Shown here one piece after another: positions 1,885-15,963 of a stretch of 53,977 nt of DNA (position 1 is the first letter of the stretch; every line of letters begins with the position of its first letter). This stretch comes from an uncultured Cytophagaceae bacterium (GTDB lineage Bacteria; Bacteroidota; Bacteroidia; Cytophagales; Spirosomataceae). The notes under the pieces were generated by a model. It did no database searches. It had not been told where the DNA came from and was given only the letters and a program-made list of their open reading frames with translations. The stretch spans positions 1-53,977 of the forward strand of contig CAIZMB010000084.1 in NCBI GenBank assembly GCA_903933935.1. Direction: 5' to 3'. A program made the position numbers and the translations under genes.

Positions 1885-4800
1885 ATGAACAAATCACATC
1901 TGTTTCCAAAATTGTTTTTGACAATTATGAAAATCACATTACAACAATTAATCATCTGTTTAGTTTTTTGCACTTTTTCTTATGCACACTCTGCTTATAG
2001 TCAATTTGATTTAAGTAAGACTGTTTCCTTACAAATGGAAAAAGCAGACATAAAAAAAGTGCTATCAACTATTGAAAAACAAGTCAATGTTAGATTTGTA
2101 TACAGTTCAAGTAATATTAATACGTCACAAGTGGTCACTATTAATGTGACTAAAAAACGACTTGATCAAGTATTGAATGAATTACTATTACCACTTTCCG
2201 TGGAGTATTTAGTAAAAGAAAATCGAATTATTCTTCGAAGTAATCAGGAAGTGGGCTCAAGTATACCTACCTTAAATCAACTTCAGTTGGTGGATAAGCC
2301 TATCACAGGAAAAGTAAAGGATGAAACAGGTCAAGGATTGCCTGGAGTAAATGTAAGTATAAAAGGAACTGCAAAAGGTACACAGACAGATTCGAATGGT
2401 AATTTTAGCTTAACGGTTCCTGATAACAATGCTTCTCTTTTGATATCTTTTGTAGGCTATACAAGCCAAGAAGTTTCAGTTGGCGATAAAAGCCAATTAG
2501 ATATTTCGCTTAAACCTGATGTCACAGCTTTGGCTGAAGTGGTGGTTGTGGGCTATGGAAGTACACAAAAAGTAAATTTAACAGGGGCTATATCAACCAT
2601 CAAGTTTGATGAAAAATTAAATAATAGACCATTGACTAATTCATCACAAGCATTGGGAGGAACAGCTTCAGGAGTTTGGGTAAGTCAAAACTCTGGAAAG
2701 CCAGGGGGCGATGGATCGCAAATACGAGTTCGAGGATGGGGTACTTTAAATAATTCAAATCCTTTAATTATTGTGGATGGAGTTGAAGGAACATTTGACC
2801 AATTAAATCCTTCTGACATTGAATCAATTTCTGTGTTGAAAGACGCGGCTAGTGCAGCAATTTTCGGATCGAAAGCGGCGAATGGAGTTGTTTTAATCAC
2901 CACTAAAATGGGGAAAAACAATGAGAAAATGGAAGTAAATGTGAATTCGTATGTAGGAGTACAGACCCTTGGTATGAGGTATAAGACGATAAGCAATAGT
3001 GCCGATAACATGGAACTAAGTAATAGGGCACTGGTAAATGATGGAGCTAGTCCACTGTATTCACCTGATTTAATCAATGCATTTAGAACGAGTACTGATA
3101 ATTTTAAATACCCAAATACGAATTGGTTTTCAGAGCTTTTTAAGCCTGCGAGGATTCAAGAACACAATGTGTCTATCCGCGGGGGATCTGCTCAAACTAC
3201 CACATTTTTATCATTTAATTACTTGAATCAAGAAGGAATGGTGGTAAATACGAACTCGCAGCGTTTTAGTTTAAGGGCTAATTTAGATTCTAAAATCAAT
3301 AATTGGTTGAAAATTAGCGGTCGAGTTAGTTACATCAATCGTCTTTCCAAGGAACCTTATGCTGATGTAACTTATGGATCTTTAGGGCGTGTATTTGAAA
3401 TGTTGAGCGGAGCTTCACCATTTATTGCACCTTACGCCAGAGATGGGCGCTTCGGATCGGTTCAAGCGACTAATAGTAATGGAGCATTATTATATGACAA
3501 CAGAAACCCTTTAATTGACGCTGCAAATGGGCAAACATCATCACAAGAGAATTTGTTATCTATTAATGCAACGGCAGAAGTAAATTTTACAAAGCATTTA
3601 TCAGTAAAAACAACATTTGCAGCTAATGGTACATGGAATTTAGTGGATCGCTACAATTCGAGTGTTTTTGGATACACGGATTCTGGAATTGAAACGATTA
3701 CCAAAAATTTCAATAGGGAGGGTTTAGAAATAAATAGAGGAAATATTTCTGGTTTCAATACAAACCTCTTTAGCACATTAAATTACAGCAATACGTTCAA
3801 CAAGGTTCATGATGTTTCTGCCATTGCTGGTACTCAAATTGAATCCAATAAAATTCAAACTTTATATGCAAGAAGAAGCAGTCCACCAAAAGAAGGTTTA
3901 ACTCAGGTAGATGCTGGTACATCTGGTATTCAAGGTTCTGGTAATATGAATGCTTTGCGCATACTATCTTATTTCGGTCGGTTGAATTATGCATTTAATC
4001 AGAAATATTTGTTTGAAGCTAATTTTAGAGCAGATGCTTCTTCCAGATTTAAAGATGGGAATCGATGGGGTTATTTCCCAGGATTTTCAGCGGGATGGCG
4101 TGTTTCAGATGAAGAATTTTTGAAAAACTCTGAAGTAATATCAAATTTAAAATTAAGAGCTTCTTGGGGCAGATTGGGAAATCAAAATATATCAGATTAT
4201 TGGCCCTACCTAACTATTATTAACCAAAATAATGCCTTGAGTTATAATTATGGGGGTAAGTTAGCTCCAGGTGCAGCTATAACCAATTTAATTGATGAGA
4301 ACATTTCTTGGGAAAAGACTTCTACAACGGATATTGGAATTGAGATGTCTTTTTTAAAGAATAAAATTTCTATTGAAGCTGATTACTTTACAAAGAAGAC
4401 GGAAGATATCTTAGTCCAGCTCCCTATCCCCTTAGTTTTAGGTGGATTGAACTCTCCATTTGAAAATAAAGGAGAAATGACTAACAATGGTGTTGAATTG
4501 ATTTTGAATTACAACAATCAGGTATTAGATCGTAATAAACTAGGTTTTAATATGGGTTTAAACGTTACCTATATTGACAATATGGTTACTAAGTTTGGTA
4601 CATCTAGGTCGCCAGATCAACTTTATTTGATTCGAGAAGGGTATTCATATAGAGAATTGTATGGTTACAAAGTTGTAGGAATATACCAAACTGATCAAGA
4701 AGCATCTGAGCATATGTTTGCTAATGGATTCAAGCCGAAGGCTGGTAACCTTAAATTTGAAGATTTAAATAATGATGGGAAATTGGGATTTGAAGATAAA

Positions 4801-5301
4801 CAGTCCATAGGTAATACGATTCCTAAAGTTACGTTTGGTATATCTCCATCTTTTAAATTTAAAGGATTCGATTTGAATATTTTGATGCAGGGTATTTTAG
4901 GAGTAAACATGTTTAATCAAAACAATTTCACTAACCTGACCTATGAAAATAGGGTAGTTGGTGAGCGCTGGCTAAATTCATGGACACCTACCAATACAAA
5001 TACTAATATCCCAATGGCAAGATTTGATAATTCTTGGAATAATTCTCAATCTTCATTTTGGGTAAATAAAGTAGACTTTGTCAAGTTGAAAAATATTCAA
5101 TTAGGGTATAGCGTGCCTGAAAGAATTTCCAATAAATATGGATTGAAAAAGGCTTACATATATATAAATGCTCAAAATATGTATACGCTGGTTAGTAATG
5201 AATTTGATGGGTATGATCCTGAGAAGAATACGTTTGATTCCAGTGTAAATCAATACCCAGTTCCAAGGATCGTTACTTTAGGCGTTAATTTAAACTTTTA
5301 A
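1885..5301 (+). CDS. SusC/RagA-family TonB-linked outer-membrane transporter with STN domain
   Basis: An 1138-residue outer-membrane active transporter. A signal peptide ends near residue 40 (SAYSQ). An STN signalling domain covers about 47-118, and a carboxypeptidase-regulatory-like beta domain about 139-210 (ITGKVKDETGQGLPGVNVSIKG). Next come a TonB-box-like EVVVVGYG (218-225), a plug with IRVRGWGTLNNSNPLIIVDG, and a C-terminal barrel ending in aromatic GVNLNF. The STN domain marks it as a trans-envelope regulator partner for the FecR/FecI pair directly upstream. It should import oligosaccharide with the SusD protein encoded 4 bases downstream. A second in-frame ATG at 1927 gives a more ordinary signal-peptide length. 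Confidence 0.96.
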   Translation: MNKSHLFPKLFLTIMKITLQQLIICLVFCTFSYAHSAYSQFDLSKTVSLQMEKADIKKVLSTIEKQVNVRFVYSSSNINTSQVVTINVTKKRLDQVLNELLLPLSVEYLVKENRIILRSNQEVGSSIPTLNQLQLVDKPITGKVKDETGQGLPGVNVSIKGTAKGTQTDSNGNFSLTVPDNNASLLISFVGYTSQEVSVGDKSQLDISLKPDVTALAEVVVVGYGSTQKVNLTGAISTIKFDEKLNNRPLTNSSQALGGTASGVWVSQNSGKPGGDGSQIRVRGWGTLNNSNPLIIVDGVEGTFDQLNPSDIESISVLKDAASAAIFGSKAANGVVLITTKMGKNNEKMEVNVNSYVGVQTLGMRYKTISNSADNMELSNRALVNDGASPLYSPDLINAFRTSTDNFKYPNTNWFSELFKPARIQEHNVSIRGGSAQTTTFLSFNYLNQEGMVVNTNSQRFSLRANLDSKINNWLKISGRVSYINRLSKEPYADVTYGSLGRVFEMLSGASPFIAPYARDGRFGSVQATNSNGALLYDNRNPLIDAANGQTSSQENLLSINATAEVNFTKHLSVKTTFAANGTWNLVDRYNSSVFGYTDSGIETITKNFNREGLEINRGNISGFNTNLFSTLNYSNTFNKVHDVSAIAGTQIESNKIQTLYARRSSPPKEGLTQVDAGTSGIQGSGNMNALRILSYFGRLNYAFNQKYLFEANFRADASSRFKDGNRWGYFPGFSAGWRVSDEEFLKNSEVISNLKLRASWGRLGNQNISDYWPYLTIINQNNALSYNYGGKLAPGAAITNLIDENISWEKTSTTDIGIEMSFLKNKISIEADYFTKKTEDILVQLPIPLVLGGLNSPFENKGEMTNNGVELILNYNNQVLDRNKLGFNMGLNVTYIDNMVTKFGTSRSPDQLYLIREGYSYRELYGYKVVGIYQTDQEASEHMFANGFKPKAGNLKFEDLNNDGKLGFEDKQSIGNTIPKVTFGISPSFKFKGFDLNILMQGILGVNMFNQNNFTNLTYENRVVGERWLNSWTPTNTNTNIPMARFDNSWNNSQSSFWVNKVDFVKLKNIQLGYSVPERISNKYGLKKAYIYINAQNMYTLVSNEFDGYDPEKNTFDSSVNQYPVPRIVTLGVNLNF

Positions 5302-5305
5302 GATC

Positions 5306-6859
5306 ATGAAAAAAATATATATAAACTTATGTTTGTTTTTAGTAAGCTTGTGTTTTAGTTGTTCTGATCAATACTTGGAAATTTTTCCAGAAGACAAGAT
5401 TACAACAGCTAACTTTCCTCAAAATGAGGCGGATATTAAGCTTGCACTAAATGGCGCTTATGCCTTATTAAGAGAATCATCTATTTATAATGAGGGGTTA
5501 TTTGGCTTTGGTGTTTTGGATGGAGCCACTCCAAATGCCTTTAATTGGGGTAATTTAATAATTACTAAAATGGGAAATGGGCAGTTGGCATCAACTGATA
5601 CGGAAATTATTACTTTTCGTTGGACCAGATGTTACGCGATTATTTTTAGGGCTAATTATTTATTGAAAGCTCTAGATCAAGTTAAATTAACTGATGCGGC
5701 CAAGAATATTTATAAGGGGGAAGCTCATTTTTTAAGAGGTTTAGCTTATTCATTATTGGCTGATGCTTATGGTGGTGTACCACTTGCGAACAGTGCTTTA
5801 ACTACAGATGAAGCACGCGTGATTACAAGAGCATCTAAAGAAGCAACTTGGGATCAAGTGATTTCAGATTATGATGTTGCTATTCAAAACTTAGGTGTTA
5901 AGGCGCCAGAGATAGGAAGAGCTGATAAAGGTTCGGCAATGGGTTTAAAAATGAGAGCTTATTTGTTTCAAAATAAATATGACAAAGTGCTAGAGGTGTC
6001 CCAGCAAATTGAAGCATTGAATAAGTATTCATTGTATCCTAGTTATGAGGGTTTATTCAAACAAGAAAATGAGAATAATTCTGAAGTAATTTTTGATATT
6101 CAATATATTTCAGGCGAAAATTCACAAGGTTCCTTTATTGATCAATATTGCGGAACAGGAACGGGTAGCTTTACACGCGGGTCTAGGTATGTGCCTACAG
6201 ATAATCTAGTGGATGCGTATGAAACCATAGATGGTAGTCCAGTTAATGCAGCTGATAAGTTTAAAAATAGGGATCCTCGTTTAGAATTCACCATTGTTAT
6301 TCCAGGTTCATATATTTTGGGTTTCCGCTTTCCTAACTACATTTACGCTGGTGGAGCATTCAACCATCCTGGGAACAGATTAAAGCATCTAAGTACCCGT
6401 AAATATCGAGAAAACCAAATGGCGAACTTGCCTACTTCTGGTCAGTCATCTATCAATAACATTGTGTTACGTTATGCGGATGTATTATTGGCAAAAGCAG
6501 AGGCTATGATTGAATTGAATAAGAATATAGATGATGCAATCGATATAATTAATCGAATTAGAACTGAAAGAAAGGACGTAAAAATCACAAAGATTCCAAA
6601 GGGATTATCGCAGGTGGAAGCTCGGGATCGTCTTAGAAAAGAAAGGCGTATTGAATTTGCTTTAGAAGGTTTATATTGGTCTGATATAAGACGATGGAAT
6701 ATCGGGAAAGATATTTATCCGATAGTAATTAAGGATCATTTAGGGGGGGTCATTGAAACTAAATTTCCCACTGGTTATTTAGATTATTATAATTTATTAC
6801 CTATTCCGGTAAGTGAGTTATCTCTTAATCCCAAGTTAGTTCAAAATCCTAAATGGTAA
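5306..6859 (+). CDS. SusD/RagB-family glycan-binding outer-membrane lipoprotein
   Basis: A 517-residue SusD-like protein. The N-terminus has a signal peptide and lipobox-like Cys at residue 19 (CFSCSDQYLE). The body has the TPR-rich SusD fold, with NGAYALLRESS near the start and the typical RADVLLAKAEA-like stretch (RYADVLLAKAEAMIEL). RKERRIEFALEGLYWSDIRRW and the closing LPIPVSELSLNPKLVQNP motif are also typical. It caps the SusC barrel and binds substrate at the cell surface. It is only 4 bases from susC and clearly in the same transcript. Ligand specificity is not readable; the sulfatases downstream suggest a sulfated glycan. Confidence 0.95.
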   Translation: MKKIYINLCLFLVSLCFSCSDQYLEIFPEDKITTANFPQNEADIKLALNGAYALLRESSIYNEGLFGFGVLDGATPNAFNWGNLIITKMGNGQLASTDTEIITFRWTRCYAIIFRANYLLKALDQVKLTDAAKNIYKGEAHFLRGLAYSLLADAYGGVPLANSALTTDEARVITRASKEATWDQVISDYDVAIQNLGVKAPEIGRADKGSAMGLKMRAYLFQNKYDKVLEVSQQIEALNKYSLYPSYEGLFKQENENNSEVIFDIQYISGENSQGSFIDQYCGTGTGSFTRGSRYVPTDNLVDAYETIDGSPVNAADKFKNRDPRLEFTIVIPGSYILGFRFPNYIYAGGAFNHPGNRLKHLSTRKYRENQMANLPTSGQSSINNIVLRYADVLLAKAEAMIELNKNIDDAIDIINRIRTERKDVKITKIPKGLSQVEARDRLRKERRIEFALEGLYWSDIRRWNIGKDIYPIVIKDHLGGVIETKFPTGYLDYYNLLPIPVSELSLNPKLVQNPKW

Positions 6860-6904
6860 AGGATCTTTTAGGATTGATTTTAATTATTTATTTAAAGTGA
6901 AATA

Positions 6905-6936
6905 AATCGGGAAGTGTCCAAATGGCCTTCCCGATT
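6905..6936 (+). terminator. Hairpin after susD
   Basis: A perfect 10-bp stem, AATCGGGAAG (6905-6914) with CTTCCCGATT (6927-6936), in the 162-bp gap between susD and the first sulfatase. There is no immediate T-run (a short AATTTTT follows about 10 bases later). It may be a partial terminator or an mRNA-stabilising structure that sets susCD apart from the sulfatase genes, rather than a full stop. Confidence 0.5.
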
Positions 6937-7021
6937 CATATTCAAATTTTTAAAGTATATTTTAATTGCTTTTTGAGAATAATTTGATTCAATCTATTTT
7001 GTTAATTAAAATTTATAGCAA

Positions 7022-8368
7022 ATGAAAAAAGGCATTTTAGCTATTTTTATATGGTGTTTAAGTAGTTGTTTTTTATTGGCACAAAATAGGAAACCTAACG
7101 TACTCATTATCCTTACAGATGATTTAGGCTATCACGATGTTTCCTATTATGACAATAAAGATTTAAGTACACCTAATATTGATCATTTGAGAAGGGATGG
7201 AATGAGGTTCGATTATTTCTATTCGAATTCACCTGTATGTGCACCTACAAGAGCTTCATTAATGTCAGGTAGATACCCTGATTTTGTGGGTGTTCCTGGC
7301 TTAATTCGCTATAACAAAGAAAATAACTGGGGTTATCTTAATCCAAGTACTATTTTATTGCCTAAAGTCTTAAAAAAAGCTGGATATCACACTGCTCATA
7401 TAGGTAAATGGAATTTAGGCTTAGAATCGCCCAATCTCCCCAATGAAAAAGGGTTTGATTTTTTCCATGGTTGGCTTGAAGATATGATGGAAGATTATTT
7501 GACGCATCTTCGCCATGGCATTAATTTCATGCGATTAAATGATCAGAAAATTGAGCCAGTAGGACATGCTACCGATTTGTTTACACAATGGTCTGTGGAT
7601 TATATTCAAAAACAAGCTCAAAGTAATCAACCATTTTTTCTTTATTTAGCCTATAATGCGCCTCATTTTCCTGTTCAGCCTCCTAAGGAATGGTTGGATA
7701 AAGTATTAATGAAAAACCCAGGAATTAATGAAAAGAGGGCTAAGCTAGTGGCATTAATTGAGCACTTAGATGATGGGATAGGTAAGGTGGTTGATGCATT
7801 AAAGAAATCAGGTCAATATGAAAATACGATCATAGTTTTCACTTCAGATAATGGAGGCCACTTGCCAGATTTAGCAAATAATGGCCCAGTTAGAGATGGA
7901 AAACAAAGTATGTATGAAGGAGGATTGAGAGTTCCAACTGTAATTAGTTGGCCAAATAAGATTGCAAAAGGCTCAAATTCTTCTCTTGTTAATTTGTCTA
8001 TGGATATTTATCCAACCATTCTTGAATTAGTAGGTACAACTTTTTCTCACAAAATAGAAGGAAGAAGTTTTGCAAATACGCTTTTGAATAAGGGAAATGA
8101 ACAACAAGAACGTCCCATTTATTTTACAAGAAGAGAGGGTGGAATTCAATATGGAGGGAAAGCGTATCACGCTATTCGCTTGGGAGATTGGAAGTTATTA
8201 CAAAACTCTCCTTTCTTGCCTTATGAATTATATAACTTAAAAAATGATCCACTCGAGAAGAATAATTTGGTTGAATCAAACCCTGAAATGACAAAAAAAT
8301 TAAACAATTTATTAATGACATTCATCCAAGAAGGAGGAAGAGTTCCATGGCAAAAACCATTAAAATAA
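7022..8368 (+). CDS. Formylglycine-dependent sulfatase (arylsulfatase A-like)
   Basis: A 448-residue family S1-type sulfatase with a signal peptide (to about residue 21). It hydrolyses sulfate esters. The metal-binding start NVLIILTDDLGYHDVSYYD supplies the paired Asp residues (D33, D34). The sulfatase signature CAPTRASLMSGRYP puts the formylglycine-forming Cys at 73, Pro at 75 and Arg at 77. HIGKWNLG and FTSDNGGH supply further catalytic and calcium ligands. Being a Cys-type enzyme it needs a maturation enzyme (FGE or anSME), which is not in this window. It is followed after 6 bases by a second sulfatase. Substrate unknown; probably periplasmic. Confidence 0.95.
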   Translation: MKKGILAIFIWCLSSCFLLAQNRKPNVLIILTDDLGYHDVSYYDNKDLSTPNIDHLRRDGMRFDYFYSNSPVCAPTRASLMSGRYPDFVGVPGLIRYNKENNWGYLNPSTILLPKVLKKAGYHTAHIGKWNLGLESPNLPNEKGFDFFHGWLEDMMEDYLTHLRHGINFMRLNDQKIEPVGHATDLFTQWSVDYIQKQAQSNQPFFLYLAYNAPHFPVQPPKEWLDKVLMKNPGINEKRAKLVALIEHLDDGIGKVVDALKKSGQYENTIIVFTSDNGGHLPDLANNGPVRDGKQSMYEGGLRVPTVISWPNKIAKGSNSSLVNLSMDIYPTILELVGTTFSHKIEGRSFANTLLNKGNEQQERPIYFTRREGGIQYGGKAYHAIRLGDWKLLQNSPFLPYELYNLKNDPLEKNNLVESNPEMTKKLNNLLMTFIQEGGRVPWQKPLK

Positions 8369-8374
8369 TCTATT

Positions 8375-9760
8375 ATGAAACTTAAATTATTTATTGCCGC
8401 ATTATGCGTTTTGACTAGTTTTCGGTCAACAGCACAAACTTCAAAAAAACGGAAACCCAACTTTATCGTCATATATACAGATGATTTAGGCTATGGGGAT
8501 TTAGGAACGTTTGGTAATCCGGTCATAAAAACGCCTAATTTAGACCGAATGGCCTATGAAGGTCAAAAATGGACTAATTTCTATGTAGCTGCTAATGTTT
8601 GTACTCCTTCAAGAGCCGCTTTAATGACTGGGAAATTACCAGTAAGGATAGGAATGGAAAGTTATAAACGTAGGGTTTTATTCCCCGATTCAAAAGGTGG
8701 ATTACCTGAATCTGAATTAACCATTGCTGAAATATTAAAAGCAAATAACTATCAAACTGCATTAGTAGGTAAATGGCATTTGGGTCATTTAAAACAGTTT
8801 GCACCTAATAATAATGGATTTGATTATTATTTTGGAATACCTTATTCAAATGACATGGACCGAAAAGGGGGTATGACTCGTGAAGATATGTTTACGCCAA
8901 ATTTTCAGGATTTCAACGTTCCACTCATGAGAAATTCAGAAATAATAGAAAGACCAGCAAATCAAAATAAGATCACACAAAGGTATACGGAGGAATCTGT
9001 TGATTTTATCAAAAGAAATAAAGAGAAACCATTTTTTCTTTATTTGGCACATTCAATGCCACATGTACCACTATTTGCAGGCAAAGATTTCAAAGGGAAA
9101 AGTATTAGAGGTTTGTATGGGGATATAATTGAAGAGCTTGATTGGAGCGTTGGAAAAGTATTAGAAACATTAAGGGAGTTGCATTTGGATGAAAACACGT
9201 ATGTGATTTTTACTTCTGATAATGGTCCTTGGAAGTTATTTAATGAACAAGGAGGTTCTTCGGGATTATTGTTTGGTGCTAAGGGAACGAGCTATGAAGG
9301 TGGAATGCGCGTTCCATTTATCGTTTGGTCGCCTACTAATATTAAACCAAGGGTTGAGATGAAGATGGGTAGTACCTTAGATATATTGCCAACTCTTTGT
9401 AGTATAGCAAACATCGATATTCCTTCTCAAGTTAAAACAGATGGATATGATTTAAGTCCATTAATGGTACAAAATAAAGATGTAAATCCTAGAAATGAGA
9501 TGTTTTTTTACCACGCTACTGATTTATTTGCCGCTCGCTTAGGTGATTATAAATTATATTATTTGAAAAATAATCCCATTGGCTATCCAGAGAAAATTGA
9601 AAAATTAGAAAAACCTGTACTTTTCAATCTATCTGTAGACCCTTCAGAGCAATATGATATTTATGGTAAAAATGAAAAAATTGTCAATGAAATAAATGAA
9701 TTAGTTCGAAAGCATAAAGAAGGCGTGATTCCTGTGAAAAGTAATCTTGAAGATTTATGA
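8375..9760 (+). CDS. Second formylglycine-dependent sulfatase
   Basis: A 461-residue S1-type sulfatase, divergent from its upstream neighbour but with the same architecture. It has a signal peptide ending near STAQ (residue 21), Asp pair in VIYTDDLGYGDLG, and signature CTPSRAALMTGKLP with formylglycine Cys76, Pro78 and Arg80. GKWHLGH and FTSDNGPW follow. Two sulfatases in one locus usually act on different sulfate positions of one polymer, or on different residues. It lies 6 bases after the first sulfatase, and its stop overlaps the start of a small ORF (ATGA), so the three genes form one transcript. Exact substrate cannot be inferred. Confidence 0.95.
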   Translation: MKLKLFIAALCVLTSFRSTAQTSKKRKPNFIVIYTDDLGYGDLGTFGNPVIKTPNLDRMAYEGQKWTNFYVAANVCTPSRAALMTGKLPVRIGMESYKRRVLFPDSKGGLPESELTIAEILKANNYQTALVGKWHLGHLKQFAPNNNGFDYYFGIPYSNDMDRKGGMTREDMFTPNFQDFNVPLMRNSEIIERPANQNKITQRYTEESVDFIKRNKEKPFFLYLAHSMPHVPLFAGKDFKGKSIRGLYGDIIEELDWSVGKVLETLRELHLDENTYVIFTSDNGPWKLFNEQGGSSGLLFGAKGTSYEGGMRVPFIVWSPTNIKPRVEMKMGSTLDILPTLCSIANIDIPSQVKTDGYDLSPLMVQNKDVNPRNEMFFYHATDLFAARLGDYKLYYLKNNPIGYPEKIEKLEKPVLFNLSVDPSEQYDIYGKNEKIVNEINELVRKHKEGVIPVKSNLEDL

Positions 9761-11751: not shown

Positions 11752-12876
11752 TCAATTATACGAATTCAACATCACCGGCATCACCAACAACAAGATATCT
11801 TCACTCTCATCTTGATCCGACGGGATAATTAAGCCAGCCTTATTAGGCTCACTCAATTTAATGTCCACAAATTTGGCCGATAAATTGCTCAACAACTCCG
11901 AAATCAATTTAGCATTAAATCCAATCTCCATATCCTTCCCCGAATATTCACAAGGCAAGGCCTCATTCGCCTCATTCGAGTAATCCAAATCCTCCGCCGA
12001 AAGTGTCAACAAATTAGCCGTTAACTTCAAACGAATTTGATGCGTCGTCTTATTCGAATAAATCGAAATACGCTTTACCGAGCTTAAAAACTCCAAGCGA
12101 TTGATCGTTAAAATTTCATTATTCTCCTTCGGGATCGCATTCTCATATTCTGGGAAACGCTCATCGATAATCCGACAAATTAATTGGAAACTCTGGAAAC
12201 TAAAGAAGGCATTCGAGGCCGAAAAGTCGACCGTCACCTGCGTATCATCCATCGGCAAAGTAGATTTCAAAAGAGCCAACGCTTTCTTCGGTAATATTAA
12301 GCTACTCTGCGTCTCTGGACGTATATCATTTCGTCTATAACGTACCAAACGATGACCGTCCGTAGCCACAAAATTTGTATGATCTCCCATCATTTGAATC
12401 AATACCCCCGTCATCGCCGGACGCATGTCATCATTGGAAACAGCTAACAACGTATTCGCTATCGCTTCGCCTAACACTAATCCCGATAAATTAATCGATT
12501 GTGTTTTAGCCACCTCCGGAATTCTTGGGAAGTCAATTGGGTTTTCACCACTTAACTTAAAACGACCATTTTGAGTCGAAATCTCCGCACCAAAAGTACC
12601 CGGATCCGCTCCTATAGTAACCGGTTGGTCCGGTAAACTACGCAAAGTCTCTAATAATAATCGGGCCGGCAACGCAATAGAGCCATTCTCAAATCCCTCC
12701 ACATCTAAAGTTGTCGTCATCACCGTCTGCAAATCAGACGCGGTTAAGGTGAGTTTATCACCGGTCAACTCGACTAATATGTTTTCCAAAATTGGAATGA
12801 TGGGATTACTAGCAACCACTCCGTTGATCGCGGAAATTTGCTTTAACAGAACATTCGATGCGACTAAGAATTTCAT
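11752..12876 (-). CDS. dnaN: DNA polymerase III beta subunit (sliding clamp)
   Basis: A 374-residue clamp subunit, normal length. Three tandem clamp domains can be followed: about 1-120 (MKFLVASNVLLKQISAINGV), 121-245 (starting SINLSGLVLGEAIANTLLAV) and 246-374. Family landmarks include VATDGHRLVRYR, and it ends in the LLLVMPVML-type C-terminus. It forms a ring around DNA that tethers the replicative polymerase. dnaA and recF are not adjacent, so this is not evidence for an origin here. Upstream, on minus, about 230 bp separate it from the rhodopsin terminator. Confidence 0.97.
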   Translation of the reverse strand: MKFLVASNVLLKQISAINGVVASNPIIPILENILVELTGDKLTLTASDLQTVMTTTLDVEGFENGSIALPARLLLETLRSLPDQPVTIGADPGTFGAEISTQNGRFKLSGENPIDFPRIPEVAKTQSINLSGLVLGEAIANTLLAVSNDDMRPAMTGVLIQMMGDHTNFVATDGHRLVRYRRNDIRPETQSSLILPKKALALLKSTLPMDDTQVTVDFSASNAFFSFQSFQLICRIIDERFPEYENAIPKENNEILTINRLEFLSSVKRISIYSNKTTHQIRLKLTANLLTLSAEDLDYSNEANEALPCEYSGKDMEIGFNAKLISELLSNLSAKFVDIKLSEPNKAGLIIPSDQDESEDILLLVMPVMLNSYN

Positions 12877-13105: not shown

Positions 13106-13828
13106 CTATTTTTCTGCTGCTGTAGCTCCTTTGGCAATTGAATAAACAACTAAACCAAAACCGATTTTGTTCACCGCATCAGCAATGTTATAAGCTAAAT
13201 CGATGTTTCCAGCAAAACCACTTAATAAGTTACCTGGTAACATCATGTATCCGATTGGATAGATAGCCCAACCTACTAATGTAAACCAACGCATTACGTT
13301 ATATCCAGACTTCACAGCCTCACTAGTAGAAGCAGCGGCTAATTTAGACGCCTCACCTGCGTAGATTTCATAAATGATCACTGCCCATCCTAAAGTAGAG
13401 ATGATACCCCATAACACGTTTTGTTCTGGAACTACTGCCTCTCCAATGTAACCTGCAACTAACATCACCACAGATCCAAAGATTAAACGAGATAACATCC
13501 CGCCTTTAGCACCCGCTGGCTTTAAGATTAAATAATACTCAATACACATCAAAGGAACTGTTAAAGTCCAGTCAATGTAACGGAATTGAGTTGGTGACTC
13601 ATGTGTTTCTAACCACACACCACGCATGTAAAAATAATGTACTGCAGCGATAAAGGTAATCAATGCTGAAATCAACAAAGATGTTTTCCATTTATCATTT
13701 ACTGTTCCGCGCTCTACAATAAAGAAGATAGAGGCAGCCAACATCGACATGTAACCTGTAAAGAAGGTAAAGCCAATGTAATCACCGGCAGCTAAACTGC
13801 CGTCCAACAAAATGTTTACTAAATCCAT
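13106..13828 (-). CDS. Proteorhodopsin-type light-driven proton pump
   Basis: A seven-helix retinal protein of 240 residues from the chosen ATG at 13828; an upstream ATG at 13876 would add 16 residues but overlaps a promoter-like -7 box. Numbers here use the longer form. Helix C reads RYIDWTLTVPLMCIEYYLIL, giving proton acceptor D102, T106 and donor E113 (a DTE-type proton pump). M110 sits at the spectral-tuning position, which suggests green absorption. H80 (VHYFYMRGVW) matches the conserved proteorhodopsin histidine that pairs with the acceptor. K237 (ADAVNKIGFGL) binds retinal. G157 (VLWGIISTLGW) aligns with the position that is glycine in xanthorhodopsin and bulky in many proteorhodopsins. 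blh and crtY lie just upstream on the same strand. Confidence 0.97.
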   Translation of the reverse strand: MDLVNILLDGSLAAGDYIGFTFFTGYMSMLAASIFFIVERGTVNDKWKTSLLISALITFIAAVHYFYMRGVWLETHESPTQFRYIDWTLTVPLMCIEYYLILKPAGAKGGMLSRLIFGSVVMLVAGYIGEAVVPEQNVLWGIISTLGWAVIIYEIYAGEASKLAAASTSEAVKSGYNVMRWFTLVGWAIYPIGYMMLPGNLLSGFAGNIDLAYNIADAVNKIGFGLVVYSIAKGATAAEK

Positions 13829-13873: not shown

Positions 13874-13904
13874 CAAAGATTTAAAAATTGTTTTTTAAAT
13901 ACAA
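13874..13904 (-). promoter_or_regulatory. Candidate promoter of the rhodopsin gene
   Basis: On minus, TTG (13904-13902), 20 bases, then AATCTTTG (13881-13874), one mismatch from TAnnTTTG. Transcription would begin around 13867, downstream of the ATG at 13876, so the ATG at 13828 is the better start. This gives the rhodopsin its own transcript, separate from crtY-blh. Confidence 0.45.
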
Positions 13905-13954: not shown

Positions 13955-14812
13955 TTATTTTTTTTTCACAAATTGATGCATCAACCAAAAATGTGGCATA
14001 GTTAACAGCGAAAGAAAAATAAATAAGTAATAAATAACACCCGTATTTGAGTTCATTTTAAGAAAGAAAAAACCCATGACGAAAGCTAAAAAGCTGAAGG
14101 GTAATAATTTAGCTAAAATAGTTTTCAAATTTAATTGTAAATGCTTTGACATATCACTCAAGCTGTATACCGCATGGCAACAAGCAAAATAACACACAAA
14201 GGCAGGAAGCAAGGGTAACCAGCAACCTAGTATAAGCGTAATAAGGGTGTTGATATAACGAAACATGCTTTGGCGTCTAAATCCTAGTAGGATACCCAAT
14301 AAACACAGATAGGGCCAGTAGGCAGGTAAAGCTACCGGTAATGCCCAAACCCAATCTCCCAAAACCACTTTTACCTCATCAAAATGGAAATAAATGATCC
14401 AACCTAATATCCCCAGCCCTAAAGACATTTTTTGACCAAACGCTAAAATAGAGCCCTTTTCTACTTCATCATTTTCAAAATCACCAAAATGAAAAATTGA
14501 GATTAATATAAAAATAACAAAGGAAATTTTGGGAAAATAATACCACATGAGCGCATAAAGTAGCATTACCCCCAAATAAGATCCCACGAACCTCAGTAGA
14601 GAAAAAGATAAACCTTGGTCTTTTTTCTGTTTTTGAATAAGTAAATGATCCCCTGCACCATGTGGAATACCCAATAAAAACATGAAAATAAAGGTAAATG
14701 CATAATCAAAATATGGATTGCTTGGTTCCACCAAAAAGCGAAAACCACCATATCCGATCGTGACGATAGATCCAAAAAATCTCTTTATCTGGATCTGGTA
14801 AAGCTTTTCCAT
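13955..14812 (-). CDS. blh: Beta-carotene 15,15'-dioxygenase, Brp/Blh family
   Basis: A 285-residue integral membrane oxygenase that cleaves beta-carotene into two retinal molecules. The family hallmark FLLGIPHGAGDHLL is at about 46-58 (His51, His56). Further conserved histidines are in SIFHFGDFEND, in CCHAVYSLSDM and in MPHFWLMHQF; these should ligate iron. About eight hydrophobic helices. Its start overlaps the end of crtY by 28 bp, so the pair is translationally coupled: CrtY makes the substrate and Blh the product. The rhodopsin that uses the retinal is encoded 126 bp downstream. Confidence 0.94.
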   Translation of the reverse strand: MEKLYQIQIKRFFGSIVTIGYGGFRFLVEPSNPYFDYAFTFIFMFLLGIPHGAGDHLLIQKQKKDQGLSFSLLRFVGSYLGVMLLYALMWYYFPKISFVIFILISIFHFGDFENDEVEKGSILAFGQKMSLGLGILGWIIYFHFDEVKVVLGDWVWALPVALPAYWPYLCLLGILLGFRRQSMFRYINTLITLILGCWLPLLPAFVCYFACCHAVYSLSDMSKHLQLNLKTILAKLLPFSFLAFVMGFFFLKMNSNTGVIYYLFIFLSLLTMPHFWLMHQFVKKK

Positions 14813-15963
14813 AAATGCGTTAAAAATAGGCGAATGGGGAGTCTGCAGAATATCTGAATCTCTTGGAACAGTGTGCTTTTTTCATCCAAAAACATTAATA
14901 TTTGAGGCATAGGCACTGAATGGAAGAGTCGTTTCATCACCTCTGGAACTTGTTTTGTATCTGTTTTGATGATGCTTAACAGTAAGCGATCATAAAACCG
15001 GAAGCGCCCTGGCTTTTTTCTATTGACCTGGCTAACTATATTTTTCGCGTCTTGATGCATTCGAGTGAACGCATATCCTGTGGATGCCTTTACCTGACCA
15101 GCCGCCGTGCCTATTTTAAGGATTCCATCAGATTCCAATGGAAACGCATAATCACTCATCGGGATACTTCCCATTTCTTCCTTTTCCAATGCATACGGAA
15201 TGGCCCCTAATTGAGTCTTCCAATATTCCTCCCAAAGTTCCTGATAATACACTTTCTCATACTGCTTCGTACTAAAGACGGTGGTCTCTACCAAAGCATG
15301 GGTTTTACTAAACGGTAATATATAATGAAAACAGGTGAAATGTTCATGCTTTTGGATTAAACTAAAATCCATTAATGTTGCCTTATTTTCGTCAAACGTA
15401 GGAGTATCTGTGCGAATAAACTTTCCATAAAAATGCTGATAAAGCCCGCCACTCTTTTGCCAATCTTCTTGATTAAACCGAGAGTCGGCAACTTTTTTGC
15501 TCCTATATGTTTCCCCTGATTCTAATGAAATCGTAAAATATTCATCTCCTTTAGCTACATTTTTGGCCATTCCTGCCACAACTTCAATGCCTGGATTCTT
15601 AGGGATATATTCAGAAAAGAAAAAAGAATAGAATTTCTCAGAGGAGATGTAATGGTAATGGATAGGCTCAACACAGGATTTAATTTCCATTCCATCAGCG
15701 CCGACAAACGCTAAATGATTCCATTTTTTTTCAATTAAATGGGAATAGATGGGAGGATTATTCTGCCAGAAGCACCAGGATTTCTCGGATCGGTCACCCG
15801 AATCGATCAAAAGAATTTTTAAGTGATGATCAGTAGGAGATTGGGTTAATTCATATAGTAATTGAAGTCCTGCCGCGCCAGCACCTATAATCGCGATATC
15901 AAAAACCTCTTTATCTTTCAATATGATTTTGTTGTTATTATTTGTTATTTTTCTAACAAGCAA
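14785..15963 (-). CDS. crtY: Lycopene beta-cyclase, CrtY type
   Basis: A 392-residue FAD-binding cyclase that converts lycopene to beta-carotene. An N-terminal Rossmann motif DIAIIGAGAAGLQ (glycines 27-32) is followed by DSGDRSEKSWCFW, the typical CrtY segment. A middle region carries PMSDYAFP and GTAAGQVKASTGYAF, the cyclase-family motif near the flavin. The start is 18 bases after the gldG stop and the end overlaps blh, suggesting one transcript gldG-crtY-blh. Other carotenoid genes (crtE, crtB, crtI) are not in the window and must lie elsewhere. Confidence 0.94.
   Translation of the reverse strand: MLVRKITNNNNKIILKDKEVFDIAIIGAGAAGLQLLYELTQSPTDHHLKILLIDSGDRSEKSWCFWQNNPPIYSHLIEKKWNHLAFVGADGMEIKSCVEPIHYHYISSEKFYSFFFSEYIPKNPGIEVVAGMAKNVAKGDEYFTISLESGETYRSKKVADSRFNQEDWQKSGGLYQHFYGKFIRTDTPTFDENKATLMDFSLIQKHEHFTCFHYILPFSKTHALVETTVFSTKQYEKVYYQELWEEYWKTQLGAIPYALEKEEMGSIPMSDYAFPLESDGILKIGTAAGQVKASTGYAFTRMHQDAKNIVSQVNRKKPGRFRFYDRLLLSIIKTDTKQVPEVMKRLFHSVPMPQILMFLDEKSTLFQEIQIFCRLPIRLFLTHLWKSFTRSR

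Follow-up and report, generated by a model that had tools for sequence, protein, structure and literature searches.

We identified a proteorhodopsin gene in a 53,977-nucleotide stretch of DNA from an uncultured Cytophagaceae bacterium (referred to as the window), and its product is, judging from its residues, almost certainly a proton pump of the DTE type. We slightly favour the account in which this protein is a green proton pump bearing a carotenoid antenna; for the use of such an antenna in the cell, the sequence data leave the chances evenly balanced. The glycine at the carotenoid window, Gly141, permits an antenna and does not diagnose one. A glycine at this site is already known in related pumps and is the usual state among the relatives of this protein. 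The preliminary description had proposed an antenna-binding green pump. Its green-type DTE motif, its glycine and the carotenoid genes were borne out, whereas the glycine proved not to be distinguishing and a proline, Pro198, occupies the site of Ser208 in the carotenoid-binding rhodopsin Kin4B8.

According to the favoured account, the protein binds retinal and is a light-driven pump of the green type that would move protons outwards. Retinal is probably supplied by a lycopene cyclase and Blh, whose genes lie directly upstream in the same orientation. With a glycine as residue 141, the β-ionone ring of retinal is probably exposed to the membrane on its side. A carotenoid ring could then approach the retinal and pass on its excitation energy. 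The likeliest partner would be one of the cell's own xanthophylls whose β-ring bears a 3-hydroxy group, and probably a 4-keto group as well, formed with the help of CrtZ and a CrtW-like ketolase. Proteorhodopsins with an antenna would broaden the range of light available to common lake bacteria. A literature search for binding or spectral data on this protein found none.

The rhodopsin gene and its pump residues

The gene (P0001) lies on the minus strand at 13106-13828, stop included; its frame opens with an ATG at 13828, closes with a stop codon ending at 13106 and encodes 240 residues. The protein matched Pfam family PF01036 with 140 bits and was the single match to this family in the genome (2.9 Mb, 98.9% complete). 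In the preliminary description, the residues were numbered "from the upstream ATG" as Gly157, H80 and Met110. The actual start of that count is a TTG at 13876, 16 codons upstream, and its numbers are therefore 16 too high. We prefer the ATG at 13828 as the start codon, because the corresponding frame of a close relative (L043) closes just upstream of it.

Residues were compared in a MAFFT alignment with bacteriorhodopsin (BR), xanthorhodopsin (XR), Kin4B8, and Gloeobacter rhodopsin (GR). The DTE motif, the histidine and the methionine at the colour site that had been described earlier were all recovered, as D86/T90/E97, H64 and M94. The segment from D86 to E97 (13538-13573, minus strand) contains the pump motif, which aligned with D85, T89, and D96 of BR, and the colour-tuning site Met94, which aligned with L93 of BR and corresponds by motif offset to L105 of green proteorhodopsin (GPR). 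His64 (codon 13637-13639, minus strand), which we take to be the counterion histidine of proteorhodopsins, aligned with H62 of XR. The retinal Schiff-base lysine, Lys221 (codon 13166-13168, minus strand), aligned with that of GPR and was invariant in our alignment A1. The residue set of a proteorhodopsin (K221, D86, T90, E97, and H64) is thus complete. An AlphaFold2 model with a mean pLDDT of 89.7 and a pTM of 0.86 showed the seven-helix rhodopsin fold. In a FastTree phylogeny of 65 representatives (support values not printed), the protein shared a branch with GPR and 9JOV, separate from the xanthorhodopsins; with 30-33% identity to the clade of XR, GR, and Kin4B8, it falls outside the xanthorhodopsin family.

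The best protein relatives, at 98% identity, came from metagenome-assembled genomes labelled Cytophagaceae or Spirosoma. From the named protein relatives, the host would be placed in or near the genus Aquirufa. According to three genus papers, Aquirufa are freshwater bacteria with red pigmentation, and the branch of A. antheringensis has a rhodopsin-retinal system (PMC10821818, PMC11861422, PMC9163014). The protein is testable at once, because cultured red-pigmented Aquirufa exist and one of them, A. antheringensis, carries a rhodopsin relative with 90% identity.

The fenestration glycine and the helix F pocket

Gly141 (codon 13406-13408, minus strand) aligned with Trp138 of BR, Gly156 of XR, and Gly153 of Kin4B8, which agrees with the earlier placement of a glycine at the BR Trp138 site. 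The flanking residues matched as well (LWGIIST in the query, LWGFLST in XR). The protein therefore has the small residue at the fenestration that is expected of carotenoid-antenna rhodopsins. Published data illustrate the role of this site: according to PMC9151804, the G178W exchange in GR abolishes carotenoid binding, and blue proteorhodopsin and GPR carry Trp and Phe, respectively, at the fenestration. In our alignments, the GPR residue appeared as Pro or Phe depending on a gap shift, and the published Phe was adopted (PMC9151804).

Glycine occupied the site in all 110 aligned loci, a count that takes in the window's own copy as well as duplicates, and in 50/50 DTE/Met representatives (90% clustering, query included). 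Being invariant in the loci of the clade, it is the clade's ordinary state. Rhodopsin-family matches were found in 61 of 395 genomes of the phylum (Bacteroidota), at 70 listed places. With a profile we read 68 of these, all but the place in the window itself and a fragment that scored under the cut-off, and obtained 61 Gly, 5 Phe, 1 Tyr, and 1 Trp. By motif, glycine was present in 42/42 DTE and 17/17 NDQ types, plus a single DTK and a single DTQ type. The seven bulky-site exceptions (L128 with Phe, L131 with Tyr, and L157, L183, L187, L188, and L191) have DTY, DTA, or TSA motifs. For several of them, the same genome (G203, G251, G255) encodes a DTE rhodopsin with glycine as well. A general statement that every rhodopsin of the phylum has glycine is false (7/68 bulky) and holds only for all sampled DTE and NDQ types. 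Glycine as an antenna signature was likewise rejected, as this residue is standard both in the clade and in the DTE and NDQ rhodopsins of the phylum. Together with the literature, the site statistics indicate that an antenna requires a small residue, yet glycine is the default of these types. They caution against inferring an antenna from the glycine alone.

The protein may instead be a plain proteorhodopsin that has no antenna, a reading to which we give a probability a little short of even. Gly141 would then pack against retinal or lipid, lipid would fill the fenestration, and the carotenoids would serve in photoprotection and as retinal precursors. The glycine in all 17 NDQ types fits this reading. 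The NDQ types are, however, no clean control, because salinixanthin is reported to bind to a natural sodium pump (PMC10026069). Nor is the glycine simply a requirement of the fold, since the seven DTY, DTA, and TSA rhodopsins carry Phe, Tyr, or Trp, which counts against the absence of an antenna. The same holds for the deposition of the nearest solved relative, NM-R1, as a zeaxanthin-bound protein and for the binding of xanthophylls by the proteorhodopsin KR1 (PMC12308411).

The remainder of the presumed antenna pocket, at the end of helix F, extends from Y194 to G199 (13232-13249, minus strand). Table 2 of PMC12308411 lists Y204, A205, S208, and Y209 as the Kin4B8 residues near the carotenoid ring, with the equivalents Y, M, T, D in KR1, Y, M, M, A in XR, and Y, L, M, L in GR. 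The present protein has Y194, M195, P198, and G199 at these positions, which lie in an ungapped stretch of the MAFFT alignment. The helix-F tyrosine (Kin4B8 position 204) is described as common to all known carotenoid binders (PMC12308411); Tyr194 was kept in 110/110 loci. The polar Ser or Thr at Kin4B8 position 208, typical of the binders of hydroxylated carotenoids, is replaced by Pro198, and the pair Pro198-Gly199 stands in place of Ser208-Tyr209. In Kin4B8, the S208A exchange leaves 2% binding (PMC12308411). Pro198-Gly199 thus offers no side chain for the hydrogen bond on which Kin4B8 depends, which favours a proteorhodopsin without an antenna. In the AlphaFold2 model, helix F extends only as far as residue 195 (pLDDT 79 for residues 191-200), so the local geometry around Pro198 is uncertain.

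Mutation of T182, P226, I227, F185, or Thr179 lowers carotenoid binding in GR (PMC9151804). Three of these residues, T182, P226, and I227, are kept as T145, P191, and I192 (with a hand-counted numbering offset); F185 corresponds to another aromatic residue, W148, and Thr179 to Ile142.

Among the 50 representatives, which are relatives chosen for their likeness to this protein, residues 198-199 were PG in 37, EG in 3, TG in 3, ET in 2, TP in 2, and SG, TE, and TS in 1 each. In the 23 DTE/Met rhodopsins of the phylum sample, the pair was PG in 7, began with Thr in 13, and was EG in 2 and SG in 1. As Pro-Gly accounts for only 7/23 in the phylum sample, the 37/50 reflects sampling near the query. 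In the tree (support values not printed), the Thr types and NM-R1 formed one branch, and the Pro-Gly types were found in its sister branch along with the Glu and Ser types. Four loci (L025, L089, L090, and L093, three of them titled Saprospiraceae) have Glu-Thr in place of Pro198-Gly199, another pocket type.

We searched the literature for an antenna-binding test of the Pro-Gly pocket type and found none. It is conceivable, although we consider it improbable, that this pocket constitutes a third kind of antenna site, one that holds the 3-hydroxy-4-keto ring of a one-ended, flexixanthin-like carotenoid. Equally speculative is its possible mode of action, in which hydrophobic contacts and the shortness of helix F would hold the ring, unlike in the Ser/Thr sites for hydroxylated and the Met sites for keto-carotenoids.

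Retinal supply and carotenoid genes

The upstream neighbour of the rhodopsin gene is blh (13955-14812, minus strand), encoding a β-carotene 15,15'-dioxygenase that makes retinal (TIGR03753, 121 bits at a cut-off of 95; PF15461). It is overlapped by a gene for a CrtY-type lycopene cyclase (14785-15963, minus strand; PF05834, 164 bits), so that cyclase, blh, and rhodopsin genes stand in series on one strand. This order on one strand was observed in 20 of 80 related loci; 31 had other arrangements, and in 29 the fetched flank, short in some cases, contained neither a cyclase gene nor blh. The genome encodes two full-length lycopene cyclases, which scored 180.7 bits (contig C92) and 159.1 bits (beside blh and rhodopsin) in the same search. 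We tallied cyclases (PF05834, at least 110 bits) in genus relatives that were at least 90% complete. All nine relatives with rhodopsin had two, the second no more than about 2.2 kb away from the rhodopsin gene, and five of the six without rhodopsin had one full-length cyclase; the sixth, G004, is an assembly of 400 contigs. Thus, the second cyclase travels with rhodopsin. Presumably, the β-carotene that it makes is destined for retinal, separately from the general pigment pathway.

Across the loci L039-L058, the rhodopsin was about 85-98% identical throughout, and in L046, L047, and L049-L058 the identity of blh and of the neighbouring cyclase, if encoded there, was down to about 40-48%. A dnaN-like gene (11752-12876) follows the rhodopsin gene in 7/80 loci. 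The module of cyclase, blh, and rhodopsin may have changed place, or parts of it may have been exchanged. Elsewhere in the window, the plus strand at 1885-9760 carries a SusC/SusD-like pair and, after it, two arylsulfatase-like genes; these may form a locus for the uptake of sulfated glycans.

The preliminary description had suggested a search of the genome for crtZ or ketolase genes, and both are present. CrtZ is encoded on contig C178 (L126, 1489-1929, minus strand); it has 146 residues with the expected histidine clusters and matched PF04116 with 36.3 bits. A CrtW-like ketolase on C109 scored 241.5 bits, under the NCBIfam equivalog cut-off of 350. CrtB is encoded on C64 and adjoined by the bifunctional desaturase CrtID (735 bits, cut-off 640), and a PF04240 (CruF-type) protein is encoded on C179. 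At the gene level, the xanthophyll set therefore comprises CrtZ, the CrtW-like ketolase, two CrtY, CrtID, and CrtB. A search for the heterodimeric lycopene cyclase PF18916 found none. The notion that the genome has no CrtZ arose from a PF04116 search that returned three long hydroxylase-like proteins, and was discarded when a CrtZ protein query found the gene. Family searches can miss short members, as the genome search with PF04116 missed a CrtZ that passes its cut-off. In a scan of part of the fetched loci for the CrtZ motif, none was found.

Ketolase and CrtZ together suggest a 3-hydroxy-4-keto β-ring of the flexixanthin or astaxanthin kind. Predicted astaxanthin genes are mentioned in the papers on the genus Aquirufa. 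In Kin4B8, energy transfer amounts to about 20% from astaxanthin and about 50% from zeaxanthin (PMC12308411). A literature search for flexixanthin together with rhodopsin matched only a taxonomy paper.

The pigment genes do not track rhodopsin in the genus. We compared 36 genus relatives, several of them incomplete assemblies, of which 23 had a rhodopsin match (only a fragment in G002) and 13 had none. CrtZ was found in 22/23 relatives with and 10/13 without rhodopsin, and CrtW in 22/23 and 13/13, respectively; the CrtW gene of G032 has an in-frame stop. Since members that lack a rhodopsin match have CrtZ and CrtW too, the presence of these two says little for an antenna, and this independence from rhodopsin favours a pump without one.

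If an antenna is bound, it might also be a keto-carotenoid held hydrophobically, as in XR and GR, and not a hydrogen-bonded hydroxylated carotenoid, which we regard as a rather unlikely variant. The non-polar helix-F pair (Pro, Gly) resembles that of XR (Met, Ala) and GR (Met, Leu), and Met195 and Thr145 correspond to XR Met208 and Thr160 (offset hand-counted). A ketolase is encoded, and CrtID and the CruF-type protein point to a carotenoid that is open at one end, as salinixanthin is. The ring is, however, probably 3-hydroxylated too, because the genome encodes CrtZ, and Pro198 takes the place of XR Met211. Furthermore, the flavobacterial proteorhodopsin KR1 binds astaxanthin with energy transfer and did not bind canthaxanthin (PMC12308411).

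Comparison with known rhodopsins

A sodium pump, a sensor, or an enzyme would be a most improbable identity, given the DTE motif with His64, the grouping with proteorhodopsins and the retinal-synthesis genes upstream, and we found no point in its support. The antenna-bearing proton pump, by comparison, appears plausible from the residue alignment, the zeaxanthin-bound deposition of NM-R1, the xanthophylls of KR1 and EINA29G6, Tyr194, the kept GR positions, the CrtZ and CrtW genes, and the gene order. The points against it are Pro198-Gly199, Ile142, the generality of the glycine, the pigment genes in relatives without rhodopsin, the weaker transfer from a keto-carotenoid, and the 29/80 loci with neither retinal-supply gene.

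The nearest solved sequences were 9jov and 9jou, with E values of about 1e-72. In a fold search, 9jou ranked first (Z 31.5, rmsd 1.4 over 228 residues, 54% identity), tied within one Z unit with PsFAR (31.2), GPR (31.0), and PsPR (30.5); Kin4B8 and XR scored 26.4 and 26.2. The match of the modelled fold supports membership in the rhodopsin family, not an open fenestration. The 9jou entry is titled 'zeaxanthin-bound light-driven proton pumping rhodopsin, NM-R1', and 9JOV is a near-identical chain. A literature search for a paper on NM-R1 with zeaxanthin found none, so the antenna claim comes from the title of the entry. NM-R1 shares with the query the fenestration glycine, the equivalents of Tyr194 and Met195, the DTE motif, and Met at the colour site. 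It differs in having Thr-Pro instead of Pro198-Gly199, Gly instead of Thr145, and Tyr instead of Trp148.

Green proteorhodopsin (7B03), about 52% identical, has the histidine and the DTE motif in common with the query but carries Leu at position 105 and the bulky Phe at the fenestration (PMC9151804). XR from Salinibacter ruber (3DDL) shares DTE and the equivalents Gly156, Tyr207, Met208, and Thr160, whereas it belongs to another clade, is only about 31% identical and has Met211-Ala212 in place of Pro-Gly. Kin4B8 (8I2Z), a xanthorhodopsin that binds zeaxanthin and lutein, likewise shares DTE and the equivalents Gly153, Thr157, and Tyr204, but is about 30% identical and has Ser208-Tyr209 at the Pro-Gly site. 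Xanthophyll-binding proteorhodopsins were reportedly described in a Nature paper of 2023. Two such proteins, KR1 from Dokdonia eikasta and EINA29G6, bind lutein and zeaxanthin according to PMC12308411. Both resemble the query as proteorhodopsins with Tyr at the 204-equivalent, and KR1 also has Met at 205; in the pocket, Table 2 of the same paper gives Thr-Asp for KR1 and Thr-Glu for EINA29G6, where the query has Pro-Gly (PMC12308411).
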